DNA of 35,615 nucleotides from an uncultured Bacteroidota bacterium (GTDB lineage: Bacteria > Bacteroidota > Bacteroidia > Bacteroidales > UBA12481): the NCBI GenBank assembly GCA_903919065.1, contig CAIXHD010000580.1, positions 1 through 35,615 on the forward strand, written 5' to 3'. The position numbers were made by a program, and so were the translations under genes. The notes beneath the pieces are model-generated. The model did not search any database and was not told the origin of the DNA. It worked only from the letters and a program-made list of their open reading frames with translations. Below, in pieces: positions 3,292 through 35,615 of the stretch (positions within the stretch are counted from its first letter, which is position 1; each line of letters begins with the position of its first letter).

Positions 3292-4212
3292 ATGAAAGAC
3301 AACCTTAATTTACAGAGACTTGCGAGAGTCATGGCCCTGATCACTTACCAATCATTGAGCAAGGAGGCGGTAATGGATCAGCTTAGTGAAGCTGAACTAC
3401 GGATATCAGACAGAACCTTTGCACGAATTATTAAGCAGATCAGGGATCTTGGTTTTGAGGTGGAATATATTCCTGATATTGGTTATCGGATTGTTGATCA
3501 GGTTCGTATAAATGAGGATTATGCGACTATGCTTTCAATAAATACGCTTTGGACCCGCCAAAGCCGCCTGGAAAGGCTCAAAACAGGGGATTCCGATGAC
3601 CTTATTCGCACTGATTTGTACTCCAGAGGGTTAAGAATGTTGCCAGTGGTTCTTCAGGCAATGAACAATAGCCAGAAGATTTCCATTGTTTATCAGGAAT
3701 ATGGGAGTCTGGATACCTTCGAGGGAACCGTCAGCCCTTTAAAACTGGCTGAAGCAGATTATCGCTGGTATGTATACGCTTATGATGAAGGTTCATCCAG
3801 CCTGAAATTATTTGGTCTCGACCGGATCCTAAATCTAAGTCTGGGGAAAAGATATAACTCAGATGAGATCCCACGTGGCGTTAAGGAGGCACTGAATCTC
3901 AATCAATTTAAGCTTGGGGTTAAATCCTCAATCTTTCCGAATTACCCAGGGCAGGTAATGGACGTTACACTCGCTGTTTCCGATTATTCGCTGCCATTCC
4001 TGATCGATCGTCCATTTATCCATACTCAGGAAATAACCAATAAGAAAATCGGGGCGTACAACGAAGTAAAGCTCCGTATTATCCCCACACGTGACCTGAT
4101 TAAAAAGGTGGCAGCAACGCTGGGAGATATAAAGATTGCCGGGCCTCAGGAGTTAACGGATTATGTCCGGAAAGAGTATCCGGCATTTGCTGATGCGATT
4201 TTATCGATTTAA
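3292..4212 (+). CDS. WYL-domain transcriptional regulator 1
   Basis: This is a 306-residue regulator. An N-terminal helix-turn-helix-like region (residues ~1-65, with SDRTFARIIKQIRDLGF) precedes a WYL domain marked by YRWYVYAYDEG and LKLFGLDRI near residues 158-182, and a C-terminal WCX-like extension. WYL proteins sense ligands, often nucleic acid or nucleotides, and control phage-defence and repair genes. It lies 87 bp after ATPase 1, with a weak -7-like TAACTTTA at 3263-3270 of its own. The next gene starts 20 bp later behind a good ribosome site. Its promoter lacks the shared CGACA module. Confidence 0.85.
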   Translation: MKDNLNLQRLARVMALITYQSLSKEAVMDQLSEAELRISDRTFARIIKQIRDLGFEVEYIPDIGYRIVDQVRINEDYATMLSINTLWTRQSRLERLKTGDSDDLIRTDLYSRGLRMLPVVLQAMNNSQKISIVYQEYGSLDTFEGTVSPLKLAEADYRWYVYAYDEGSSSLKLFGLDRILNLSLGKRYNSDEIPRGVKEALNLNQFKLGVKSSIFPNYPGQVMDVTLAVSDYSLPFLIDRPFIHTQEITNKKIGAYNEVKLRIIPTRDLIKKVAATLGDIKIAGPQELTDYVRKEYPAFADAILSI

Positions 4213-12053: not shown

Positions 12054-12098
12054 GTAAACAAATTTTGCAAATGATGTATAAAGAATGTATATTTGATG
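12049..12098 (+). promoter_or_regulatory. Promoter of the second Fic gene; copy B of the 50-bp promoter repeat
   Basis: TTTG (12064-12067), 20 nt, TATATTTG (12088-12095). The block matches 900-949 at 45 of 50 positions, differing within the spacer and around the -7 box. The Fic ATG lies 20 nt downstream at 12116. Upstream in-frame starts at 12065 and 12071 fall inside the promoter and are rejected. Confidence 0.8.
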
Positions 12099-12115
12099 TT
12101 CGAAATCGAAATCTT

Positions 12116-13024
12116 ATGAAGACACAACTTATTCCGGCTGGGTATCTTGACTTATATCTTGAGCAGCAGCCGATTAACATTGAAAGGCAACTCGAAAAGT
12201 TCAGGAAGCAATCTGCGAATGAGGCGAATCTGGAGATTTCCGTCGCTAAGGCTGCGGTTTATTCCTCCATGATTGATGGCAATCCGATCGATTTTAACAA
12301 ATACAAGAAGTTCAAATCGACAGGTATCAAAAAGGAATCCCTCCTATACAGAGAAACCTTTACCATTTCGATTGCAAAGTCTGCATTCTATTCCTGGGCA
12401 ATGGAGAATAACTCTCTTACGTTGGATGAGTACCTGAAGTATCAATTCCCCTGGATGAAGACCAACACCCGCTACTTTAGTGAAATTCTGGAACTCATGG
12501 CTGCATACGAATTTGCAATATCCAACCGCCTTGATATTGTGACGTTGCTTAAAACCCATGAAATATTATCCCAAACACTGCTATCAAAACCGGTATATCG
12601 GGGAAAATTCCGGAAGGTAGAAGCTGGATTATACAAAGGCAAGAAAAAGACCTATTCTCCAACACCCGCTTCCCAGGTTGAATCAGAAATGAACAAGCTA
12701 TTCGGCGATATAGAAATTCTCATAAACAGTGAACTTTCCACCTCCGGGATATTCTATTTTGCCTCCATGATTCATCTGGTCTTTGGTCACATCCATCCTT
12801 TTGCCGATGGAAATGGAAGAGCAGCAAGATTATTGGAAAAATGGTTTCTCGCTGAAAAGCTCGGCGCCGCTGCCTGGCATATTCCCTCCGAAAGGCTATA
12901 TTTTGAAAGTATCATGGCCTATTATCAAAACATAAATATCGGCATCGATTACGAGCACGCTGATTACGATTTATGCTTGCCTTTCCTGTTGATGCTTCCA
13001 ATGGCTCTCCGGCTTAAAAAATAA
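12116..13024 (+). CDS. Fic family AMP-transferase 2
   Basis: The protein has 302 residues. The catalytic loop HPFADGNGR starts at residue 227, preceded by the helix with MIHLVFGHI. An N-terminal helix carries SSMIDGN (50-56), which takes the place of the usual (S/T)xxxE(G/N) inhibitory motif but has Asp54 where Glu is expected. Glu normally blocks ATP gamma-phosphate binding by pairing with the Fic arginine, so inhibition may be weaker. It differs from the first Fic protein by lacking DUF4172. It may be co-transcribed with the DUF3267 gene 18 bp downstream. Target unknown. Confidence 0.9.
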   Translation: MKTQLIPAGYLDLYLEQQPINIERQLEKFRKQSANEANLEISVAKAAVYSSMIDGNPIDFNKYKKFKSTGIKKESLLYRETFTISIAKSAFYSWAMENNSLTLDEYLKYQFPWMKTNTRYFSEILELMAAYEFAISNRLDIVTLLKTHEILSQTLLSKPVYRGKFRKVEAGLYKGKKKTYSPTPASQVESEMNKLFGDIEILINSELSTSGIFYFASMIHLVFGHIHPFADGNGRAARLLEKWFLAEKLGAAAWHIPSERLYFESIMAYYQNINIGIDYEHADYDLCLPFLLMLPMALRLKK

Positions 13025-18611: not shown

Positions 18612-18646
18612 GCGACACGGTTTGTCGCTTTACGGAGTTACATTTG
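18612..18646 (+). promoter_or_regulatory. Shared promoter module, site 4 (WYL regulator 2), most symmetric copy
   Basis: GCGACA (18612-18617), 5 nt, TGTCGC (18623-18628) is a perfect inverted repeat. After 10 nt comes TACATTTG (18639-18646). Measured from CGACA, the distance to the -7 box is the same 26 bp as at the other sites. The WYL ATG lies 18 nt downstream. A second dyad, CCAC-AATA-GTGG, lies at 18586-18597. The layout fits autoregulation by the WYL protein. Confidence 0.8.
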
Positions 18647-18663
18647 AAATAAACGATATAACA

Positions 18664-19590
18664 ATGTCAAAACGAGGCTACATATCAAGATATATGCTCA
18701 TTGTAAAAAAACTGAAAGCAAAGCCTTTCAGTTCATATGAGGAGCTGAAATCTTTCATAGAGAACCAGGTGGAATATCTGCAGATGCAGGATGATACACT
18801 TGAAATCGGATTCTCTAAACGGACATTACAGCGGGATATCCGGGAGATCCGGAATAATTTCGGTATCGATATTGAATTCTCCAAAGGCCAGAAAGGATAC
18901 TTCATCGGAAACGATGAAAACGAGAACATGAATTTTCAGCGGATGATGGAGGCGTTCGATATGTTCAATTCGCTAAACCAGGCGCAGGACATGACGCCTT
19001 ATATTCACCTGGAGAATCGCCGGCCGCAGGGCACGGGAAACCTTTACGGACTGCTGCATGCCATTAAAAACAGACTGCAGATCAGTTTCTCCTATCAGAA
19101 GTTCTGGGAGGATGAGATCAGTCACCGGCAAGTTGAGCCTTTTGCACTAAAGGAGTTTAAGAACCGATGGTATATGCTTGCTAAAGATTTGAACGATGAT
19201 TCGATCAAGACCTTTGGACTGGACCTTCTGACTGATCTTGAATTTAGCCGGAAAACATTCAGAGCACCGGCCAGCTTCAATATAGAGGAACATTACCGCT
19301 ATTGCTTCGGAATCATCAGTCCCAATGGTAATGAGCCTCAGGACATCATCCTTTCGTTCGATCCCATCCAGGGTAAGTACATCAAAACCCTGCCACTCCA
19401 TAAAACCCAGCAGGTGATCATTGATAACGAAAAGGAATTGCAGGTAAACCTGAAGCTGTGTCTCTCGCACGATCTGATCATGGAACTGCTCTCCTTTGGC
19501 GACAGCCTGAAAGTTTTACAGCCTCAGTTTTTGATTGATGAAATTAAATCCGCCCATCAGAATGCTTACAAACAGTATGAGAATATCTAA
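18664..19590 (+). CDS. WYL-domain transcriptional regulator 2
   Basis: Length is 308 residues from the ATG at 18664. An earlier TTG start lies inside the operator and is rejected. The N-terminal winged helix (FSKRTLQRDIREIRNNFG) is of the DeoR/YafY kind. The WYL domain reads PFALKEFKNRWYMLAKDL and IKTFGLDLLTDLEF, near residues 158-195, and a C-terminal WCX region follows. It is close in architecture to WYL regulator 3. It is a good candidate for the factor that reads the CGACA-N5-TGTCG sites, because its own promoter has the most perfect one. Likely co-transcribed with the Cas4-like gene 44 bp downstream. Confidence 0.85.
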   Translation: MSKRGYISRYMLIVKKLKAKPFSSYEELKSFIENQVEYLQMQDDTLEIGFSKRTLQRDIREIRNNFGIDIEFSKGQKGYFIGNDENENMNFQRMMEAFDMFNSLNQAQDMTPYIHLENRRPQGTGNLYGLLHAIKNRLQISFSYQKFWEDEISHRQVEPFALKEFKNRWYMLAKDLNDDSIKTFGLDLLTDLEFSRKTFRAPASFNIEEHYRYCFGIISPNGNEPQDIILSFDPIQGKYIKTLPLHKTQQVIIDNEKELQVNLKLCLSHDLIMELLSFGDSLKVLQPQFLIDEIKSAHQNAYKQYENI

Positions 19591-20291: not shown

Positions 20292-20473
20292 CCAGATCCG
20301 GCTCCGCTAACGGTAATTGAAATTGAGAATACTGCCATCTGGATAAATTGGCGATGGTAAGGATTTTGGGGGAGCTGGAGGAAAGTATGGACTATCAGTA
20401 ATCCATAAAAAAAGCTTAACTTAATGCCCCCATGCAGTTTAGAGCCCAATGTAAATCAATAAGTCACAAAAAC

Positions 20474-23326
20474 ATGAACGGTTCGCGCAGAAATCGGATA
20501 ATGGAATTACTCTCAGCTCAATTGAGCGATGATGATATCCTTGCTATCCTTGATAATGAGTTCCCTTCCGGAGAATTGAAATCATCCAATAAACAGGCCC
20601 TATACGGCACTAAAAGGGACGTTTCTATTTTGAATTCCCAACAACTTCCTCAAAAATCAAATGTCCCCAAAGTTGGTTTTGGGGACAAAAGTTCGATTTT
20701 GGAATCCGCAATTGAGGCTTATAAGAATTTCATCAAAGAAACCGGTCTAAAGGGTGAGATATACAAATGGAAGGCAATCAAGCACTTTCAGGATACATGG
20801 AATCCCAATGCTGATAATTTCGGTGAAATGTTTGAACTGGCTATTAAACAGCAGTTTAATCTGATGAGCTATTGGTCGTCAAACATGCTTCGCTATTTCT
20901 GCCGTGATTATCCAATGGAATTTAAAGAAGCTATACTGATGTTGTATGATGAAAGTATTGAGCTTCAGGTAAGGATCAATCGCTTTCAAACCTTAGCAAA
21001 AGAATTGTCTAAGCGAGTCGGAAGTGATTTTAATGATTTTCAGGATGAGAGGGCAATATCTGTATACCTGACTTTTCGATTCCCTGATCGCTATGTCCAT
21101 TACAAAAACTCTTTCTATTCGCACTATTGCAAATTGATGGATATCAAAAAAGCCAAAACGGGGGAAAAATTCATACATTTTCAAACGCTTGCGCAAGAGT
21201 TCAAAGAGAAATATATATCGCCGGATCCCGATTTAGCGGATCTTATCAGGTCCTTTTTGGGCCCGGATGATTATACCGATTCCAATCTGAACTTGCTTAC
21301 ACAGGATTTTTTCTTTTTCCTTGAAACTGGCTCTCGAAGTGGAAGCGACATTAATTATTGGATCATTGGCGCTGGAGAAAAGGCCAGGTTCTGGGCACAA
21401 TTTCAAAGCCAGGGTATCGCAGCCATTGGAGAACCTCCAATTGGGGACCTCAACCAATATGAAACAAAGGAAGAGATTGAAGCTGCAATTCAATCCTATG
21501 AAAAAACGGACAAAAGGCGTTATAATGATGCTCTTGCAGGTTATGAGATTTGCCAGGTAATGAAACCGGGTGACATTATTTTTGTCAAAAGGGGCAATTC
21601 CGAATTTCTGGGTTATGGCGAAGTTACGTCAGGATATTTCTTTGATGAAAGCTTAGACTATCAGCATTATAGAAATGTTTTATGGAAGAAAACAGGAGTT
21701 TGGAAGGAGGATATGGGTAAAATTGTCCAAAAAACCCTGACCAATATTACGGATTATCCAAGCGAGCATCCTGATTATGATAAATACTATCAGAGAATTT
21801 TGGCACTTATCAATGGGACCTATACATCACTTCCCAACAAACCAAGAGCCATGACAACAAGATTTCCGTTAAATCAAATTTTTTATGGCCCCCCAGGTAC
21901 CGGAAAAACATACAACACTATATCTGAGGCCATTAAAATAATTGATCCTGAATTCTTTGCTGAGAATAATCACAATAGGCAAGAAATGCAGAATAAATTT
22001 AACGACCTTCTGATAACGGATTGGGAAAGGATAGATGGCAGAAAAATAGCTTTTTGCACTTTTCACCAAAGCATGAGCTATGAGGATTTTATTGAAGGAA
22101 TCAAACCGAAGGAACCGGAAAAGGAAGGTGATCCCGTCGTTTACAGCATTGAAGAGGGATTGTTTCACAAATTGTCCACGGAAGCAACCTTTTCAATCGC
22201 CTTGAAAAAAGAGTCCGCAGATCAAGCTCAGATTCTTGATTTTTCCTTGGCCTACGATCAATTTGCTCAGGAATTGGAAGAAAAACTTTCATCGGATGAA
22301 GTTGTGGAGCTCGATACCAGAAATGGAGGCAAGGTTTTAGTGGACAGTGTATCACGACTGGGTAACTTCATCATTAAACATCATGGAGGAACCAGGATTT
22401 ATACTGTCTCCAAAAACCGGATATCGAAGCTGGCAAAAGCCATCGATGATTTGGACGACGTTAGTAATATTAATGAGCTGTTTCGGGAAATAATCGGAGG
22501 AAGCAACTCATCTGCCTATTGGGCGGTTCTGAATGGAATTCGTCAGAAAAAGTACCATGGCATCAAACCTGAACAGGACAGAAAATACTCATGGGACGAG
22601 AAAAAGGAATTGATCCATACTCTTACCAATCAGGATTATAAAGACCTTGATGGAGAACCGTATGTTCTGATTATTGATGAAATCAACAGAGGGAACGTAT
22701 CTCAGATATTCGGTGAACTGATCACCCTCATCGAGGATAACAAAAGGCTCGGGAATCCGGATGCACTTCAAACCGTTTTGCCTTACTCGAAAACCAATTA
22801 TGGAATACCACCTAATTTGTACATCATCGGCACTATGAATACGGCTGACAGAAGTGTTGAAGCATTAGATACTGCCCTTCGCAGAAGATTCACATTCAGG
22901 GAATTCATGCCGGATCCGGAACTCATCAAAGAAATCCTGGGCCCAATAGCTTCGTGGAAGGGCATTCATCTCTCGGAGGTCCTGACAAGCATAAACAAGC
23001 GTATAGAAATCCTTTTGGACAGGGATCATCAAATCGGTCATTCTGATTTTTTGGCATTGAAACAATCACTTGATATTGACTCTGATTTGAAAAGGATATT
23101 TACAAAGAAGATCATTCCTCTTCTTCAGGAGTATTTTTACAATGATTACGTCAAAGTAGGAATGGTCCTCGGTGAGGGCTTTGTATCAGCACAAAAGCGG
23201 GATACCGTAAAGTTTGCACATATTGAGGAATCTCTGGATGCCGATTATGCTGATGGATACCTTTATCGGCTGATATCAGAAGATCAAATAGATATGGAAA
23301 ATGCGCTGAATCAACTTATGAATTAG
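20474..23326 (+). CDS. mcrB: McrB-like GTPase with an EVE-like DNA-reading module
   Basis: Length is 950 residues from the ATG at 20474; an ATG at 20432 would add 14. The motor is at the C-terminus: Walker A GPPGTGKT at 472-479, Walker B YVLIIDEINRGNV, and the McrB signature GTMNTADRSVEALDTALRRR. Residues ~295-435 (YWIIGAGEKARFWAQF, GDIIFVKRGNSEFLGYGEV) resemble the EVE/PUA-like domains that bind modified bases. The first ~290 residues form another domain of unknown type. With McrC it should form a GTP-driven restriction machine cutting modified DNA. The EVE-like unit replaces the E. coli N-terminal domain, so specificity probably differs. Confidence 0.9.
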   Translation: MNGSRRNRIMELLSAQLSDDDILAILDNEFPSGELKSSNKQALYGTKRDVSILNSQQLPQKSNVPKVGFGDKSSILESAIEAYKNFIKETGLKGEIYKWKAIKHFQDTWNPNADNFGEMFELAIKQQFNLMSYWSSNMLRYFCRDYPMEFKEAILMLYDESIELQVRINRFQTLAKELSKRVGSDFNDFQDERAISVYLTFRFPDRYVHYKNSFYSHYCKLMDIKKAKTGEKFIHFQTLAQEFKEKYISPDPDLADLIRSFLGPDDYTDSNLNLLTQDFFFFLETGSRSGSDINYWIIGAGEKARFWAQFQSQGIAAIGEPPIGDLNQYETKEEIEAAIQSYEKTDKRRYNDALAGYEICQVMKPGDIIFVKRGNSEFLGYGEVTSGYFFDESLDYQHYRNVLWKKTGVWKEDMGKIVQKTLTNITDYPSEHPDYDKYYQRILALINGTYTSLPNKPRAMTTRFPLNQIFYGPPGTGKTYNTISEAIKIIDPEFFAENNHNRQEMQNKFNDLLITDWERIDGRKIAFCTFHQSMSYEDFIEGIKPKEPEKEGDPVVYSIEEGLFHKLSTEATFSIALKKESADQAQILDFSLAYDQFAQELEEKLSSDEVVELDTRNGGKVLVDSVSRLGNFIIKHHGGTRIYTVSKNRISKLAKAIDDLDDVSNINELFREIIGGSNSSAYWAVLNGIRQKKYHGIKPEQDRKYSWDEKKELIHTLTNQDYKDLDGEPYVLIIDEINRGNVSQIFGELITLIEDNKRLGNPDALQTVLPYSKTNYGIPPNLYIIGTMNTADRSVEALDTALRRRFTFREFMPDPELIKEILGPIASWKGIHLSEVLTSINKRIEILLDRDHQIGHSDFLALKQSLDIDSDLKRIFTKKIIPLLQEYFYNDYVKVGMVLGEGFVSAQKRDTVKFAHIEESLDADYADGYLYRLISEDQIDMENALNQLMN

Positions 23327-23333
23327 GGGGAGA

Positions 23334-24584
23334 ATGCCCAAATTTAGAAAACATAGGGTAATTCAGGTTTTTGAACATTCATCCATTGCATACAAAGGGA
23401 AGCACAGGCATGAACAATTCACTGAATCATTACATACAGCTTTTGAAAAGTACTTCAACAACAATGAGACAACTCCGTTTTTCAGCATGATTCCATACGG
23501 GGTCCGTTTTAATCAATATGTTGGGGCTATTCATTTAGGGTCAACAACAATCGAGGTTTTGCCAAAAGCAGGCAGAGAAAATGATCCAAAAATTTGGCAG
23601 GCGGTATTATTGCAAATGCTCAAAACTTGTCATTTGTTAACAGCAAAAACCACAGGTTCAGCGCCATTAAGGCTACGCTCAAACGACATTCTGGATTTGT
23701 ATTTTGAATGGTACTTGAACGAGCTGGATTATCTGATGCGCAGAGGATTAATAAAAAGATATCGTCAAACGCAGGGCCAGCAAAATGCGTTGAAAGGAAC
23801 AATAGACTTTCCAAAGCATGTCACAAAAAATCTGATTCATCAGGAAAGATTCTATACAAGATACACTTCGTATGATCAGGATCATCTTATTCATCAGATT
23901 CTGTTTCAAGGGCTTTTGCTGATTGAAAGGATCTCAGCTTCTCCAATCCTGTTTGATCAGATTGGTCGACAAAAACTATCCTTTCCAGAGGTCAACTCAC
24001 TTCAGGTGACAAATCATCATTTCGGAAAAATCCGGATGGATCGTAAAAATCAGCCTTACCAAAAGGCTCTGGAAATAGCCAAATTGCTGCTTTTGAACAC
24101 TCGTCCGGATATTAGCCATGGTAAAGAAGATCTTCTTGCTATCATGTTTGATATGAATTCTTTGTGGGAAGAATATGTTTACCGGATCCTGCGCAAGACC
24201 ACTGATAACGAATGGACCATTTATCCCCAGGTCAGAGATAGATTTTGGGAACAGAAAAGCATCCGCCCTGATATTGTCCTAAAACCAAAAGACAATCTCC
24301 GAAGCTCGATCATTATAGACACCAAATGGAAAACCGTTGAAGATGGACAACCCAATGATGCGGATTTGAAGCAAATGTTTGTTTATAACCACCATTGGAA
24401 ATGTCATCAGAGTATTTTGTTGTATCCCAGAACCAAAGGGCAAAATGACCTAAAAGGCAGCTATCACCTTACTATGGGTGACAAAACCCATTCCTGCAAG
24501 CTTGCTTTTGTTGATGTTTTGTGTGGCAACCGGCTAAATCAACAGCTTGCAGCTGAAATTCTCAATAAAATCGATGCAGAATAA
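23334..24584 (+). CDS. mcrC: McrC-like endonuclease subunit
   Basis: The protein has 416 residues. It starts 8 bp after mcrB behind a purine-rich site. The N-terminal beta-rich part (IQVFEHSSIAYKGK, GAIHLGSTTIEVLPKAG) fits McrC. The C-terminal PD-(D/E)XK nuclease core is IRPDIVL ... IIIDTKWKTVE, about residues 313-334, followed by DLKQMFVYNHHW. McrC also stimulates the GTPase of McrB. All catalytic residues appear intact. Confidence 0.9.
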   Translation: MPKFRKHRVIQVFEHSSIAYKGKHRHEQFTESLHTAFEKYFNNNETTPFFSMIPYGVRFNQYVGAIHLGSTTIEVLPKAGRENDPKIWQAVLLQMLKTCHLLTAKTTGSAPLRLRSNDILDLYFEWYLNELDYLMRRGLIKRYRQTQGQQNALKGTIDFPKHVTKNLIHQERFYTRYTSYDQDHLIHQILFQGLLLIERISASPILFDQIGRQKLSFPEVNSLQVTNHHFGKIRMDRKNQPYQKALEIAKLLLLNTRPDISHGKEDLLAIMFDMNSLWEEYVYRILRKTTDNEWTIYPQVRDRFWEQKSIRPDIVLKPKDNLRSSIIIDTKWKTVEDGQPNDADLKQMFVYNHHWKCHQSILLYPRTKGQNDLKGSYHLTMGDKTHSCKLAFVDVLCGNRLNQQLAAEILNKIDAE

Positions 24585-25062: not shown

Positions 25063-25833
25063 ATGAATCATCCCAGCTATAATTCTGAAAAAAGTATTCA
25101 GGCATATCAAAAGCGGTGCTTTGCTGACTACAAAGCAACAATTGGATATCCACCTTCCTACACCTACTTGCACGGTCAATCTATAAACCCTCTCGTCCCA
25201 ATTGAAACCCCTATTAACGGAATTATGGTAGTTGGTGCATATCCATCAGCAAAGTTTTACAATGTTAGAAGTGATACAGGTAAAGTTGTTTCCGATGTAC
25301 CGGTTTGTGACAACGATTCTCCATTTTCAAACGAGTCCTATTTTGATGGTTCCAGAGTGAGAACCATTCCTTCAGGGAAGGAGCTCAATGAAGTAATTCT
25401 GGCTGAACTTGGTATATCCAGACTGGATTGTTGGATCACTGATTTAGTCAAAGTATTTCTTTTCAAACCTGGCCATGTCGTACGGTATATAAAACTTGGG
25501 AAAACAGATATCATCTCTAATAGAAAAGATTTTCTTGCCTACGCTAAGAATAGTATGCAGTTCTTGGATCAAGAAATTTCTATCGCTTCACCAAAGGCAA
25601 TTCTGCTGCTTGGGTCCGAAGTTACACATGCTGTTTTTCAAACGGGGATGGATAAAGCAAAGGATTTGATGAATGGAGAAGTTTTGTATAAGAGTTTTGG
25701 CAGTCAGAGCTATCCGGTCTTTTGTCTGCCACATCCTGGTATTTTGATGAAAAAATTTGATGATAATCCATGGCCTGAAAAGTTTGCAAAAGAGATTGCC
25801 CCAAAAGTTAAAATACTACTTAGAAGTTTTTAA
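25063..25833 (+). CDS. Uracil-DNA-glycosylase superfamily protein
   Basis: The protein has 256 residues. The superfamily motifs are in order: GIMVVGAYPSAKFY (residues 53-66, the nucleotide-flipping loop region), CWITDLVKVF, SPKAILLLGSEV and LPHPGI near the C-terminus. There is no four-cysteine cluster as in family 4 enzymes. The Pro-His-Pro-Gly ending is like motif 3. It follows the mcrBC genes on the same strand with a 65-bp gap. It may remove a modified base, perhaps one that McrB also reads; the substrate cannot be inferred. Its last 18 bp overlap the convergent deiminase gene. Confidence 0.75.
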   Translation: MNHPSYNSEKSIQAYQKRCFADYKATIGYPPSYTYLHGQSINPLVPIETPINGIMVVGAYPSAKFYNVRSDTGKVVSDVPVCDNDSPFSNESYFDGSRVRTIPSGKELNEVILAELGISRLDCWITDLVKVFLFKPGHVVRYIKLGKTDIISNRKDFLAYAKNSMQFLDQEISIASPKAILLLGSEVTHAVFQTGMDKAKDLMNGEVLYKSFGSQSYPVFCLPHPGILMKKFDDNPWPEKFAKEIAPKVKILLRSF

Positions 25834-27452: not shown

Positions 27453-28598
27453 CTACCCCATAAAACACCCATCCCCGAACTGGCTCAACCGGCTGAAATT
27501 TCTGCTGTAATTATCTTCGGAATTGAAAAGCCAAACAATGCGGGTATGCAGGTTGATATTTTTAGGTGGAGTGGGGGCCACACCGTCTGTGATGATGATC
27601 AGGCCGTCATAAGTACCGTCGTCTGCCATAAAATCCATGACGCACTTGAAGTCAGTACCGCCACGACCCCTGACAAGCATCTCTTTCATTGCCTTCTTCA
27701 GGGACAGCTTTCTGCCCTGAATTTTGGCATCAAACTGTATCACATCGCAGCTTTCAATCCCATAACTGAACAGCCGGTTGATGATGGACAGGGCTTTTCG
27801 CAAATCCTCATCGCTCACAGAGCCACTGGTATCCATGGCTACCAGCAGTTTTGTCGTAAAGCGGTAGCGGCTGCCCATATTCTCAAAATCATAGCGCCTG
27901 TTGGGCCGGGTGCGGGTCAGGTCGCGCTTCTCTGAAATGATGGAATGTCTGAATCGCCGTAGCACCTTCCGGTAATCTACCTTAACTTTCATCGAACCAG
28001 TGATCATGCCAATCAGGTTGCCGGGAATGCTGCCCCACTTACCGGCAAGCTCAGCGTTACTGATGGCTGAATTGATCTCTTCCGCCACCAGGTCGTCCTG
28101 TTCCCATAAATCTGCATTGATGATCTTATCCAGATCAGGTAGACCTGATTCCGGCTCTGCTTCCATCGATGATGAGTCGGTTGCGGAGAGGTCATAAAGT
28201 TTCACCATTTCCCGATAGTATATCTCGAATGAACTTTGCAGAAAAAGCTTATGCTTCCAGAAATCCCGGTATCGGAACAACTTGCAGGCGGTCGTAAAAA
28301 CTTCCGTAATGGCAATGTCGCTGGCAATATACCCGATTGGCCTGATGGGTGGCTGCCTTTGGTACGGATGCTTCAGGAGGATACGGATGATCTCGATCTT
28401 CAGGTATTCTTCGAACAGGGGAATATCCAGCCGCTTCACAAATTCACGGTTGTACTCAATTCTTCTTAGCCCAGACCGTATCGTGACTATCCCGTTGTTC
28501 TCCTGCAGCTTATGGGTGATAAGTACATTAAAGAACAAAGGTTCCGTCAGGAACCATTTGTCGTATATGGCTGATATTTTGGCTTGAACCGGATCCAT
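27453..28598 (-). CDS. VWA-like (DUF2201-type) protein
   Basis: The protein has 381 residues. The C-terminal half holds a von Willebrand factor A-like domain with a complete metal site: DTSGS starting at Asp256, GRGGTDF and IIITDGVAP. The N-terminal ~180 residues fit the metallopeptidase-like region of DUF2201 proteins, but no HExxH is visible. It starts directly after the MoxR stop, as is usual for MoxR-VWA pairs. In those pairs the VWA protein couples ATPase action to a target complex. Target unknown; last gene of the operon. Confidence 0.85.
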   Translation of the reverse strand: MDPVQAKISAIYDKWFLTEPLFFNVLITHKLQENNGIVTIRSGLRRIEYNREFVKRLDIPLFEEYLKIEIIRILLKHPYQRQPPIRPIGYIASDIAITEVFTTACKLFRYRDFWKHKLFLQSSFEIYYREMVKLYDLSATDSSSMEAEPESGLPDLDKIINADLWEQDDLVAEEINSAISNAELAGKWGSIPGNLIGMITGSMKVKVDYRKVLRRFRHSIISEKRDLTRTRPNRRYDFENMGSRYRFTTKLLVAMDTSGSVSDEDLRKALSIINRLFSYGIESCDVIQFDAKIQGRKLSLKKAMKEMLVRGRGGTDFKCVMDFMADDGTYDGLIIITDGVAPTPPKNINLHTRIVWLFNSEDNYSRNFSRLSQFGDGCFMG

Positions 28599-29669
28599 TT
28601 ACAGGTTGTCGATAAAATCGTTGACCAGGGTGAGAAGCCGTGTATTATGATTCAGTATCGTCAGGTTCGCTTTTTCATACCGGGCCGATTCAAGAATATT
28701 GATCCAGTGGGCAACTGCCTCCTTCCAGCTGTTGTCCATCAGCCAGTTGAGGTAGTTCATCAGGTTTTCCGTCTGAACCAGACTGGTTTCAGCGGTCAGA
28801 CCGGCGGTCTGCAGGTAATTGAAAATGTTTTCGTTGAGGATCGCAAACTGCTGAACCTGGTATTCTTTGAGTTTCGGTTTAGATCTTTTGAAACTATTCA
28901 GCAGTTCACTGGCCGGGATCACGCCGCCATGGTTCGACTCTTCGAAAAATGCCACAGCCGCCTTAACACCCACAATCCCGGCAATCATTTTTTTGTCGGT
29001 CTCATTTAATGTTTCCTTGCCGGTGATAATTTTTGAAACCCGCTCCCAGGCACGCCTGTCAGGGTGCTTGTCAAGCGTGGCATCGGAATATTCTCCCACG
29101 CTGGTCGCCAGAAACTCAGGATGAATCTGGATAAAGGTTATCACTCTTTTGTCCAGACCTGCCGATGCTGCCCATCCTAACCACTCAGATACCGAGGGTT
29201 CAAAATGGTAGATATTGAATCTTGATACCAGCGCCGGATCCAGGTCGGTAAGCTGGTAGATATCCCCCTCATTAACGGCTGATATGATGCGGCTTCCATC
29301 GGGCAGTGACTTACCTGCGAGTGTCCGGTTCAGCGCCAGGTCCATGATCGACTGGAGAATTTCCGGCCGGGCCCGGTTAAGCTCATCCAGGAAAAGTACC
29401 ACCGGCCGGCCATCAGTCGGGAACCAGTAGGGTGGCATGAAAACTGACTTCCCCGACTCACTGTCCTTATTCAATAGGCCGATAAGATCCCCGGGATCAC
29501 TCATCTGGCCAAGAAAAAGGGTGACCACCTTTTCTCCAAGGCGGGTGAAATAATCAGTGATGATCCTTGATTTTCCAATTCCATGACTGCCAACCAGCAT
29601 GATGTTTTGCTCGGCAGGGGTGTCGTTCAGGATATAATTGAGTTCGGCGATATTGATATTAACAGGCAT
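28599..29669 (-). CDS. MoxR-type AAA+ ATPase
   Basis: The protein has 356 residues. Walker A GSHGIGKS is at 27-34, Walker B VVLFLDELNRARPE, and a sensor region SAVNEGDIYQ followed by DPALVSRFNIYHF. This is typical of MoxR/RavA-like chaperone ATPases. A strong AAGGAGG ribosome site precedes the ATG. It overlaps the previous gene by 11 bp, and the VWA gene begins immediately after its stop, so MoxR and VWA are translated as a unit. Confidence 0.9.
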   Translation of the reverse strand: MPVNINIAELNYILNDTPAEQNIMLVGSHGIGKSRIITDYFTRLGEKVVTLFLGQMSDPGDLIGLLNKDSESGKSVFMPPYWFPTDGRPVVLFLDELNRARPEILQSIMDLALNRTLAGKSLPDGSRIISAVNEGDIYQLTDLDPALVSRFNIYHFEPSVSEWLGWAASAGLDKRVITFIQIHPEFLATSVGEYSDATLDKHPDRRAWERVSKIITGKETLNETDKKMIAGIVGVKAAVAFFEESNHGGVIPASELLNSFKRSKPKLKEYQVQQFAILNENIFNYLQTAGLTAETSLVQTENLMNYLNWLMDNSWKEAVAHWINILESARYEKANLTILNHNTRLLTLVNDFIDNL

Positions 29670-30339
29670 GTTTTCCTCCTTCTGTCCAGGTGATGTTGTT
29701 TCCGTGAGTTTTTATCTGAATTTTGAAGCCGGTCTGGTTAAGCAGTTCAAGTGCCTTTTCAATTGTTCCGGCTAACCTGGGTATCTCAATAATGAAATTC
29801 CTGTGGCTGATGGGGATTTCGATCTTCATCCTGCCCGGGATTCTGATATTCAGGAGAACTCTCGACTCATTCCTGACCATTTGATATTCATAGTTTTGGT
29901 CCTTCATGAATTCCTCCACCATGATCACGATATTTTTTTCCGCTATAGATTTTCTTTTTTTTCTTTTAAAATCCCTCAGCTTCAATATTTCAAATTCCTT
30001 ATTCCATTCCTCAAGTGATGAAAAAAATGCAACAGCAAAACGGACAAAGCTTTCCGGCTCAATGAGTTCGAGACTATAGGAATAGCTGTAATCTAATTCC
30101 CTGGTGAACCCACAACTCAGCCGGTTTCGCGAATCTTTCCTGAGCGTAAATCCCTGTCCCCCGGCATTGGTGTAGGTGATTTCCCCTGCATTCCCGACAT
30201 CAAACCTTACATGATCCGGCAATGCCGGGTTCAGCAAATCAGAGAAGACAGCCGGTTCAATGTTTTTTACTGTTGATGTGTTTGTTGCGGACCAGATCTT
30301 GCTGACCCGCTTTCGGTAAAATCCTCCTGTCGTTAACAT
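29659..30339 (-). CDS. Unknown 226-residue protein of the MoxR/VWA operon
   Basis: It has no recognised domain. There is a Lys/Arg-rich stretch in the middle (KRKKRKS). The C-terminal part has beta-strand-like segments (VLLNIRIPGRMKIEIPI). It ends with GGKHAC and overlaps the MoxR start by 11 bp. It could be the VMAP-like third partner known for MoxR-VWA systems, but only position supports this. Confidence 0.75.
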   Translation of the reverse strand: MLTTGGFYRKRVSKIWSATNTSTVKNIEPAVFSDLLNPALPDHVRFDVGNAGEITYTNAGGQGFTLRKDSRNRLSCGFTRELDYSYSYSLELIEPESFVRFAVAFFSSLEEWNKEFEILKLRDFKRKKRKSIAEKNIVIMVEEFMKDQNYEYQMVRNESRVLLNIRIPGRMKIEIPISHRNFIIEIPRLAGTIEKALELLNQTGFKIQIKTHGNNITWTEGGKHAC

Positions 30340-30340
30340 C

Positions 30341-30763
30341 TTAATTCATCAAGTGTTCAGGGAAAAAGTCTTTTATTACGAAGTCACAATCAGAAACAGA
30401 AAGCGAGCCGTCCGGTCGAAATTGTACATCGATATGGTTCTTATGCTTGCTGGCTAAAATTAGTCCCCGGGTGAAATAATTTTCATCCGGGTCAAGGAGC
30501 ACAATGCAGGGCATTGCCTGATATCCGTCGTCATGACTGATTAGCACATATTCCGAAAGGTGACGAACCTTGTTTTCCTTAAGGGTAAAATCGCTGATGG
30601 ACTGGCGTAAAATCAATGATCCTATGGAGAGGGTTGGGTCAACGGCATAAATTTTAGCTGACTGGCACTTGAGCTTTCTTAATGTTTCGCCGAATTTCTG
30701 CCAGCTGATTGGTTCAACTTCTTCAGGGGAATTTCGGCAAATAGCAAGCGAGTAATTTTCCAT
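30341..30763 (-). CDS. Unknown 140-residue protein of the MoxR/VWA operon
   Basis: It is not recognised. It is acidic and soluble, with beta-strand-like segments (VLISHDDGYQAMPCIVLLDP, then FTRGLILASK). One base separates it from the next gene, so coupling is likely. Confidence 0.7.
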   Translation of the reverse strand: MENYSLAICRNSPEEVEPISWQKFGETLRKLKCQSAKIYAVDPTLSIGSLILRQSISDFTLKENKVRHLSEYVLISHDDGYQAMPCIVLLDPDENYFTRGLILASKHKNHIDVQFRPDGSLSVSDCDFVIKDFFPEHLMN

Positions 30764-32583: not shown

Positions 32584-33477
32584 TTAGGCTTTATTCTCCT
32601 CGGTGTTCGGCTGTATTTTGCGCCGCAGGGCAACCGGGCTTACGATCTTAACATCCGAGCCGTAGGAACGCAGCACACCGATCAGTTCATTGGTAATAAA
32701 AAGTTCTAAACTGATCCTCAGGAGTTTGTCGGTTTCCTCAAGCACTTTCTGGGAAGGATGGAGTGGGCAGGTTTTTATGTATTTACCGGTAAACTCAGAG
32801 AATTCCAGGACAATTATTTCCGGCGTCTTGCTCGCATCCGGCCGGGTAACGCCAAAACAGTACCTGAAATATTCGGAAAGATTAAATTCTTTTGGAAAAG
32901 TAAAACGCTCTGGTGTGATACGGAACGATCCTATGCGATCCAGTCCGAATACCTTAATTTTCTTGTCGCTATCCATGCCCACCAGATACCATCGGTTATT
33001 GTATTCCTTTATGCCATAAGGATCTAAATCCCTTTCTGTAAAAGAGTTATCGACAAATTTCTGATAGGTGAACTTAACTTTGAGGTTTTCCCGCAGCGCC
33101 TTGATAATCTCCGGAATCATCTCTTTTCCTTTCAGTGGGCGTTCATCAAGCTGGATACGGCCGTTTAGCGATCCATCAATAGCGGGCAGGCTATACAGAT
33201 GGATAGCTTCCAGCAGCCTGATGCTGAGTTTCTGTTCTGAGCTCTCCTGCTCAATTACATAGTAACCCAAACCGTTGCAGGCTATCTGTATTCCAAAGGA
33301 ATCTTTGATGTTATGGATATATCGCTGAAAAGTGCGCTGGGATATATTGTCCTCCGGATCCTGAGTACCTGAATTTCTGAAAACATAATCCTGAATTTCT
33401 TCGAATCTGGCACCCTGTTCGCCGTACCGGCGCAATACCTGAATGATCAGAACATAGCGGTTTAACTTTTCTGCCAT
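32584..33477 (-). CDS. WYL-domain transcriptional regulator 3
   Basis: Length is 297 residues from the ATG at 33477, which follows a -7-like TATATTTA (33505-33498) by 20 nt. The N-terminal winged helix ends with SQRTFQRYIHNIKDSFG. The WYL domain reads DPYGIKEYNNRWYLVGMD and IKVFGLDRIGSF. It is similar in order and length to WYL regulator 2. The CGACA module is absent from its promoter. Ligand and targets unknown; its partner in the operon is the M28 peptidase. Confidence 0.85.
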   Translation of the reverse strand: MAEKLNRYVLIIQVLRRYGEQGARFEEIQDYVFRNSGTQDPEDNISQRTFQRYIHNIKDSFGIQIACNGLGYYVIEQESSEQKLSIRLLEAIHLYSLPAIDGSLNGRIQLDERPLKGKEMIPEIIKALRENLKVKFTYQKFVDNSFTERDLDPYGIKEYNNRWYLVGMDSDKKIKVFGLDRIGSFRITPERFTFPKEFNLSEYFRYCFGVTRPDASKTPEIIVLEFSEFTGKYIKTCPLHPSQKVLEETDKLLRISLELFITNELIGVLRSYGSDVKIVSPVALRRKIQPNTEENKA

Positions 33478-33597
33478 ATATTCAATTGTTAATGATCTAA
33501 ATATACTCAAAAGCGTGATAACCAGAAACCCAGTAATCGCTGCACTACGTTTCGAAAAGGATGCAGGTTTGCAAACTGGAGTTTTGTGTAATCATCC

Positions 33598-35481
33598 TCA
33601 TATTTTTATCCGAGGGTTAAGACCGATAAAAACCTTATTGTTTTCATCTCTGACTTTCGTGAAGTAAAGTTCATCTTTCATGAGTTTATAAAGTATGGGT
33701 ACTTTAACTCTTGGATCAGCGTAAGTGATTCTTCGAATAATCTCATTTGATCTGATTGAATCTTGACCGCAATTTGAAATAATGCTGATTATTTTGTTCC
33801 TGAGTATGGTATGGTGTTCGGGCACGTGGGTATGAATACGCTTTTTCTTTGTCTCGATCGTCAAACCAGGAAACCGATTGATCCACATCGGTAGTATGAA
33901 TTTATCCTGGTCAACACGGATGCAAATTCTTCCGACCGTCGCATTAATTGAATTTGTTTTAACCTGTGGCCTCAGTTTGTGAATTTCAACCACAATTTCG
34001 GCCAAAGTGCACGGTCTGTTCAGAATATGCATGGCCTTCATTACAAGGGTGTCTATCTTATCCCTGTTTAATTTCCACTCTGTAAGTGCCCAATAGGTTG
34101 TCCTTCCCTGTGGTTTGAACCTTGAGTCTGTAGATAATGCAAGGCTGTTGCGCTCATAAAGTTTGTTGTTGAAATTGGATGAAAGCCTCCCATTGATGGC
34201 TGAAACGATTTGATCCAAAGTCATTGCCTGACCATTCTCGAATAAAATGCGGTAAGTGAGATCCCTTGCATTACCCAGCATATCGAATTTTATCTGGTAC
34301 TTGATTGTTTCGTCCGTTAGAATCGATTCGATTTCGGGTAAAGCGAAAAGAGCATCACTGATATGCTTTGCCGGAGCCTTTTTTACTGTGTTACGCACCT
34401 TTATTATTATGTCGGGCTCAGTCATGCTAACAACGCTATCCATCAAAATATCCTTCACCGTTTGAGCAATAGTCAGGAGGTCGTCTTTATTTTCTACATC
34501 AGTTACATACAGTTTGGATTTTGTAAAATAGTTTTCACGTACTCCGCACTCAATTATTCCGAGAACATCGAGGAATAGGTTCAGAATGCCTTCTGTTTCA
34601 TCTGTAAACTGTTCATTGAATTCAATTGATAAAAGGGTTTTGAGACTATTAATTGAATGAATGCTTTTGCTGTAAAGCAGGTTTATAGCTTTGTTGAGTA
34701 ATTCTTTAGCCTCTGGCCGTAATTCTGATCTGGGTTCATCAATTCTGCCTCCCTTCAAAAGAGTACCAAGTCGTTCAAGAATGATTACCTGAACTTGTCT
34801 GATCCTTTCTCTATTCAACAAAAAGAGGTTGGCAATTTCATCCCTTGTATGCATTCTGCTTCCTATGCCATATCCAAGAAAAATAAACTCCTTACGCAAT
34901 GGACTTTCAAGGAGATTAAGAAAGTCCATTACAACATCGCTGAAGAGTATGAGTGGAGATTGGAGCGAAATATTATTCTGGTTTGCCGGCAATTGAACAA
35001 ATCCGGTTTTTCTTTCCGCCAGAGTTAAAAAGACATCCGGCTCACTAATCAGACGTTGTTTTAGGTCTGTGAACAGCCTGACGGATCTTTCGCCAGTACC
35101 CTGTAGCTTTCGAAACATCACCTCCGGACATTCATGGATATCTCCAAGGGTGATTAAATTCAATTTGTCAATTTTTGATTGGAGAATACCTGGAATCAAT
35201 TCCGATACTATTGCGATTCTGATATTATGCAACTCATCGCTTAATTGTATTGATGTATGTCCCATGTTTCTGCCAGCCAATTGAATAAAAGATTCTGGTT
35301 CATCGACTAACCTTCGTTTCAGATCGTTAAAAACTTCTGCGGATTTATTACCGGTACTGTAAAGTTTTCGAAAATCCTCCTCGGTACAGTTGGTAATATC
35401 TCCCAGAGTACGGAGATTCAACTTACGCATCTTAACCTGCAATAATCTGGGAATCAAATCAAGAACTAGCTCTATATAATA
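33598..35481 (-). CDS. Alpha-CTD/sigma-4-like multidomain DNA-binding protein, 5' end lost to an IS
   Basis: About 628 codons are open; no ATG is found at the 5' end. Two repeats (KLNLRTLGDI... and KLNLITLGDI...) each resemble the helix-hairpin-helix of the RNA polymerase alpha C-terminal domain, near 35430-35330 and 35180-35070. SRMHTRDEIANLFLLNRERI (~34865-34800) resembles sigma region 4 with its helix-turn-helix. A HARE-HTH-like segment (LTYRILFENGQAMTLDQIV) follows near 34260, then two winged-helix-like segments. The frame continues upstream as IELVLDLIP, matching repeat 2, to a stop at 35482, close to an IS. The N-terminus was therefore probably truncated by insertion. Confidence 0.7.
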   Translation of the reverse strand, partial: YYIELVLDLIPRLLQVKMRKLNLRTLGDITNCTEEDFRKLYSTGNKSAEVFNDLKRRLVDEPESFIQLAGRNMGHTSIQLSDELHNIRIAIVSELIPGILQSKIDKLNLITLGDIHECPEVMFRKLQGTGERSVRLFTDLKQRLISEPDVFLTLAERKTGFVQLPANQNNISLQSPLILFSDVVMDFLNLLESPLRKEFIFLGYGIGSRMHTRDEIANLFLLNRERIRQVQVIILERLGTLLKGGRIDEPRSELRPEAKELLNKAINLLYSKSIHSINSLKTLLSIEFNEQFTDETEGILNLFLDVLGIIECGVRENYFTKSKLYVTDVENKDDLLTIAQTVKDILMDSVVSMTEPDIIIKVRNTVKKAPAKHISDALFALPEIESILTDETIKYQIKFDMLGNARDLTYRILFENGQAMTLDQIVSAINGRLSSNFNNKLYERNSLALSTDSRFKPQGRTTYWALTEWKLNRDKIDTLVMKAMHILNRPCTLAEIVVEIHKLRPQVKTNSINATVGRICIRVDQDKFILPMWINRFPGLTIETKKKRIHTHVPEHHTILRNKIISIISNCGQDSIRSNEIIRRITYADPRVKVPILYKLMKDELYFTKVRDENNKVFIGLNPRIKI

Positions 35482-35498
35482 CTACCCAATAATAGGAC

Positions 35499-35535
35499 CA
35501 CTGGTTAAGTTGAAAAATTTAACTTTAAACCAGTG
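35499..35535. other. Hairpin in the IS leader
   Basis: CACTGGTT-AAGTT pairs with AACTTTAAACCAGTG around a 9-nt AT loop, just before the OrfA start. It could be a terminal-end structure or protect the transposase from outside transcription. Confidence 0.55.
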
Positions 35536-35538
35536 AAA

Positions 35539-35615
35539 ATGAAAGCAAAAAGACAACATCATTCGGCAGCCTTCAAGGCCAAGGTTGCGATTGAAGCGCT
35601 CCAGGAGCGAGAGAC
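35539..35615 (+). CDS. IS3 family transposase OrfA, N-terminal fragment
   Basis: 25 codons are visible: MKAKRQHHSAAFKAKVAIEA and a few more. The pattern (basic start, SAAFKAKVAIEAL) is that of the OrfA helix-turn-helix of IS3-family elements. The rest lies to the right of the window. Confidence 0.8.
   Translation, partial: MKAKRQHHSAAFKAKVAIEALQERE

Follow-up and report, generated by a model that had tools for sequence, protein, structure and literature searches.

A chain of alpha-CTD-like, sigma region 4-like and winged-helix modules, probably the DNA-binding sensor core in a modular Bacteroidota protein family with links to defence

Introduction

What would a bacterium do with a protein that strings together relatives of parts of RNA polymerase alpha, a sigma factor and RNA polymerase delta, and how much of that protein is left where an insertion sequence has cut into its gene? 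Both questions are raised by a minus-strand open frame (33,598–35,481; 627 codons plus a stop codon, no internal stops) from an uncultured Bacteroidota bacterium. The window, by which we mean the whole stretch of DNA analysed, is 35,615 nucleotides long and is an entire contig (C580), one of the 621 in the genome.

Results

The chain opens with two alpha-CTD-like HhH modules, encoded, like all the modules described here, on the minus strand. The first (residues 4–61; 35,299–35,472) was delimited by AlphaFold2, self-comparison and profile-profile alignment, its RNA_pol_A_CTD match (35,335–35,430) being weak; the second (residues 87–148; 35,038–35,223) is the equivalent of the single module of homologues. 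The two are 56% identical across 66 residues at an offset of 86 residues, and their self-alignment score is 188, against 24 ± 4.5 (maximum 47) across 1000 shuffles. When an alignment of both window modules and nine homologous modules was compared by hhalign with the RpoA CTDs of the same order, the probability was 86% (E 5e-6), as against 0.1–7.5% for 20 column-shuffled controls. In one distant relative (L038) the score for Pfam RNA_pol_A_CTD attains the cut-off, and the VR, RN and G-R-K-S residues typical of true alpha-CTDs are retained. In E. coli, alpha-CTD residues R265 and N268 make the main contacts with DNA (the UP element). By alignment, equivalents of both are absent from the two window modules and have likewise been lost in the close family, where UP-element reading by the HhH modules therefore appears unlikely; R265-, G296-, K298- and S299-like residues are retained in L038 and a second distant relative, L040.

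The HhH modules are followed by a sigma-70 region 4-like helix-turn-helix (residues 176–246; 34,744–34,956), recognised by profiles and by structure. Although the signal from the window protein alone is weak (Pfam E 0.16; NCBIfam RpoD E 7e-4), a five-sequence profile matched sigma factors in the PDB with an E-value of 1.7e-6, and the segment occurs at the equivalent place in nearly every homologue. The structural match to sigma-70 region 4 has a Z-score of 8.3 over 80 residues (rmsd 4.7), and the model of a homologue (L023) fits sigma-A region 4 to 1.6–1.7 Å over about 60 residues. The helix that corresponds to the -35 recognition helix carries RERIRQ in the window protein, and its ER.RQ motif (residues 225–229; 34,795–34,809) is found in 14 of 16 homologues. 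The equivalent residues of E. coli sigma-70 read the -35 element, and since they are kept, some promoter-like recognition by this module is plausible. Pfam, NCBIfam and PDB profiles matched the region 4 segment only, with no match to sigma regions 2 and 3.

The remainder of the chain is a row of winged helices. A helical region that is winged-helix-like in the L023 model (residues 252–325; 34,507–34,728; predicted models) leads into a winged helix seen by AlphaFold2 (residues 326–400; 34,282–34,506). Next comes a HARE-HTH-like winged helix (residues 404–470; 34,072–34,272; profile and model), related to RNA polymerase delta by profile (E 2e-5); Pfam HARE-HTH matches for single sequences are below the cut-off, and the NCBIfam delta model matches one homologue (L026) with an E-value of 1.5e-7. 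Two more winged helices close the chain, one weakly DUF7669-like (residues 474–532; 33,886–34,062; Pfam and AlphaFold2) and one at the C-terminus (residues 553–623; 33,613–33,825; AlphaFold2 and structure matches with Z up to 9.8).

For the window protein, AlphaFold2 returned HhH, HhH, sigma-4 and then at least four winged helices, and not unrelated folds. Confidence over the whole chain is modest (pLDDT 72.8, pTM 0.34); the L023 model, with five winged helices, is better over its first 540 residues. From these models the individual predicted domains are credible, their relative arrangement is not. Whole-chain Foldseek matches to TFIIIC, RPC62, Dcc1 and ScpB had low TM-scores and were set aside as reflecting tandem winged helices and no specific kinship. 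Family profiles, profile-profile alignment and AlphaFold2 are concordant on module content, and they bear out the original prediction, made from the letters of the window, that alpha-CTD-like repeats and a sigma-4-like helix-turn-helix lie in one chain. The HARE-HTH-like modules of that prediction come down to one, identified by the delta profile, among about five winged helices.

At its 5' end the gene runs into an IS3-family element, of which the left end and the start of OrfA are present on the plus strand (35,475–35,615) before the contig stops within it. The two frames of homologous elements, OrfA with HTH_Tnp_1 and OrfB with rve, are those of the IS3 family. A search of 295 genomes of the order turned up related elements in 37, and the copies aligned at this boundary start with ATAATACT[AC]CCC, mostly preceded by T, which places the end of the element at 35,475/35,476. 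It follows that the TAG at 35,484–35,482 belongs to the IS, as do the two or three codons with which the frame opens (about 35,475–35,481). No second copy was found in the assembled contigs of the same genome. The disruption that had been predicted is thus real, with its boundary there and not at 35,482.

What the gene lost is probably small. In full-length homologues the HhH module occurs once at most, and they start 15–20 residues ahead of its conserved motif; in one of them (L002) stops abound in the stretch before the start codon. The nearer part of this lead-in is still present in the window frame as host sequence, and measured against homologues the frame has probably lost about 8–10 residues and the start codon. 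The idea that an N-terminal effector or a longer run of repeats is missing was rejected: homologues begin at one HhH module, hence at nearly the same point as the interrupted frame, none has an N-terminal effector, and no further HhH module was found on any other contig of the genome. One more upstream copy is conceivable, because the window protein, unusually, carries two copies of the module. The insertion, at about codon 8–10, took away the start codon together with the former upstream sequence, and the gene in the sequenced genome is therefore probably silent, or limited to re-initiation at a possible internal TTG codon (35,457). Intact copies are present in other genomes.

Members of the family are thinly scattered in Bacteroidota. 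Among 393 genomes of the order, five have one, counting the genome of the window, and none of seven congeners does; in another family of the phylum, nine of 397 genomes have a member, five of these strong, and Flavobacteriaceae bacterium GF1 carries one as well. In a contig collection the window protein as query found no matches and an alignment-based scan found four, and scans of plasmids, phages and viral contigs yielded no relatives. This patchy spread, over about 1–2% of genomes, is the pattern of an accessory gene.

Apart from having a single HhH module, homologues share the core of the window protein, and it is the C-terminus that is swapped. A member from Bacteroidales UBA6267 carries a fused TIR_2/SEFIR domain (E 4e-8 and 5e-8), and a 381-residue member (genome G749) has two hydrophobic, transmembrane helices within its C-terminal residues 308–374. 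Five Flavobacteriaceae-type members (the L023 group) share a helical C-terminal domain of about 200 residues with an invariant R-x4-H (R-N-x-D-T-H), which resembles HEPN RNases by motif only; Pfam gave no HEPN match for it, the PDB gave designed coiled coils only, and its AlphaFold2 pLDDT is below 50. Other chains end after the last winged helix, namely those of the window, of L002 and of the first two members in genome G328. No fused effector was recognised in the window protein, which counts against a role in defence. The G328 members are three tandem paralogues (L010, 645–5,007), two of them without ER.RQ and one truncated, which suggests decay or specialisation following duplication.

Several relatives have defence genes as neighbours. 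In G749 the member stands in an island that reads tyrosine integrase, NACHT, an HNH-like gene (by eye), the family member, type IIG restriction-modification and SIR2 (L017, 210–12,043). At L036 the adjoining gene encodes a CAP12/Pycsar TIR effector (E 1e-41), and the distant relatives of L038 and L040 lie directly upstream of DndD/PbeC-like and DndE-HerA genes. At these two loci (L038, 8,086–14,134; L040, 3,935–10,891) a 737-residue protein combines alpha-CTD, sigma-4, winged-helix and helicase-associated domains, and the whole may be an unlisted Dnd-like system. The flanks read at L023, L035, L037, L010, L039 and L041 contain no clear defence neighbour. At L011, a gene (403–1,242) just upstream of the TIR/SEFIR-fused member looks nucleoside-deoxyribosyltransferase- or TIR-like by eye, with no support from Pfam.

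These observations bear on the strongest alternative, that the family consists of ordinary transcription regulators or sigma-like accessory factors whose sigma-4 module and winged helices bind promoters and have no part in defence. Such a role would account for the widely kept -35-reading motif, for the several members that lack an effector, the window's among them, and for the two relatives (L039 and L041) that sit among housekeeping genes. It fits poorly with the absence of sigma regions 2 and 3, with C-termini made of TIR/SEFIR domains, transmembrane helices or R-x4-H domains, and with the combination of patchy spread and defence-island neighbours, and we consider it unlikely, though a serious contender.

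Within the window, the gene is followed directly on the same strand by a WYL/WCX regulator (32,584–33,510, minus strand; Pfam). A perfect palindrome, GTTTGCAAAC, lies between the two (33,567–33,576) and is a possible operator; near-matches to it with one mismatch allowed are no commoner than chance. The 35-kb contig has three WYL regulators (3,292–4,212, 18,622–19,590 and 32,584–33,510), each by a different cluster, and the second and third are 34% identical. WYL proteins have been described as regulating CBASS and BREX operons (PMC9122588, PMC9122589).

The nearest recognised defence system is 9 kb from the studied gene, a distance that speaks against the defence reading, whereas its presence in the window along with three WYL regulators speaks for it. 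This system consists of McrB-like AAA and McrC genes (20,432–24,584; McrC E 4e-62) and is a type IV restriction cassette. Upstream of it are the second WYL regulator and an unassigned gene, and downstream is a uracil-DNA-glycosylase-like gene (25,063–25,833). A tight minus-strand operon (27,453–30,763) encodes a MoxR-type AAA_5 ATPase, a DUF2201 metallopeptidase/VWA-like protein and small unassigned genes. The MoxR gene is itself patchy, being present in two of 31 related genomes, and the other of the two (G027) has a member of the present family as well. A Fic/DOC-family protein is encoded at 12,065–13,024.

Discussion

Some of its intact relatives carry effectors, and they often adjoin anti-phage genes; on these grounds the protein probably represents the DNA-sensing half of a defence family that has been little described. 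We favour, with some reserve, its identification as the DNA-binding core, with a sensor role, of a modular Bacteroidota family that is linked to defence. The effector fusions and defence neighbours of relatives also support the general direction of the original prediction, which had offered a defence regulator as one possible role.

From the module content and the anatomy of homologues we infer DNA binding, sensing, control of an effector and phage defence, in the following way. An extended DNA reader would be built from the alpha-CTD-like HhH modules (one or two), the sigma-4 module and the row of winged helices, one of them HARE-like. This reader may dock at promoter-like or otherwise marked sites, where it would detect invading or altered DNA, or transcription, and detection would switch on the effector. 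In relatives the effector would be the C-terminal fusion, be it TIR/SEFIR, the pair of transmembrane helices or the R-x4-H domain, or perhaps the product of a neighbouring gene. The window core ends before the point at which effectors are attached, and therefore any effector would act in trans.

The presence of alpha-CTD, sigma region 4 and delta relatives in one chain, with RERIRQ intact, could also be read as mimicry of RNA polymerase, with the protein occupying promoters and monitoring or blocking transcription, for example by binding the beta flap or -35 elements when phage takes over. We hold this to be improbable: the window HhH modules have lost the equivalents of R265 and N268, and the folds in question are common DNA-binding modules that have been recruited elsewhere in defence proteins, as described for several systems (PMC12839542, PMC10853773). 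It is very improbable that the protein serves a separate restriction-like machine as its DNA-recognition subunit instead of switching an effector, as the position of the L038 and L040 relatives upstream of the DndD/PbeC and DndE-HerA genes might suggest, given that the Dnd linkage was seen only in a distant group with the HA domain and that close relatives have fused effectors.

A sensor core of this kind has partial parallels in known systems. PglW of type 2 BREX likewise has an alpha-CTD-like helical domain followed by several (three) winged helices, but these are described as flanked by a kinase part on the N-terminal side and an inactive STAND domain on the C-terminal side (PMC12839542), whereas the family studied here has a sigma-4 module and relatives with swapped C-termini; no kinase or STAND match was found in any member examined. 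MzaA of the MZA anti-phage system (NCBIfam NF041931) also has a sigma-70 region 4 domain, and hits of its model fall on that segment (E 7e-7 in L023), but on that segment only, at 13.9 bits in the window protein and 28.4 bits in L023 against a cut-off of 800. With RNA polymerase delta and HARE-HTH proteins the protein shares one winged helix, which here is one of about five and is chained with HhH and sigma-4 modules; fusions of HARE-HTH to restriction enzymes have been reported (PMC10853773). With RNA polymerase alpha it shares the HhH fold of the CTD but has no alpha N-terminal domain.

Sigma-type helix-turn-helix modules have also been recruited in DndH variants (PMC10853773), in BrxL (PMC12839542) and in a fusion of DUF4145-type HEPN to SIGMA-HTH (PMC3710099), but the core proteins differ, and the sections of these sources that treat them do not describe the present module order. 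For the module combination with C-terminal swapping, the papers searched offered partial parallels only (PglW, DndH, BrxL, HEPN-SIGMA-HTH and MzaA). The combination appears to be new, while its grammar, in which a reader with several HTHs forms part of a modular protein linked to defence, would be that known from PglW, DndH and MzaA.

PADLOC has no model that covers proteins of this family, and Pfam and NCBIfam recognise fragments only, so the family would escape current defence finders. If these proteins are indeed sensor cores with swappable effectors, a receptor architecture would be added to the known set. A more specific version, to which we give little credence, is an immune receptor built from alpha-CTD-, sigma-4- and delta-like parts that would read promoters or transcription complexes and fire interchangeable effectors when phage alters host transcription. 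Should the sensor-core reading hold, it would make a question testable, namely whether bacteria detect the takeover of transcription by phage via promoter-reading modules.
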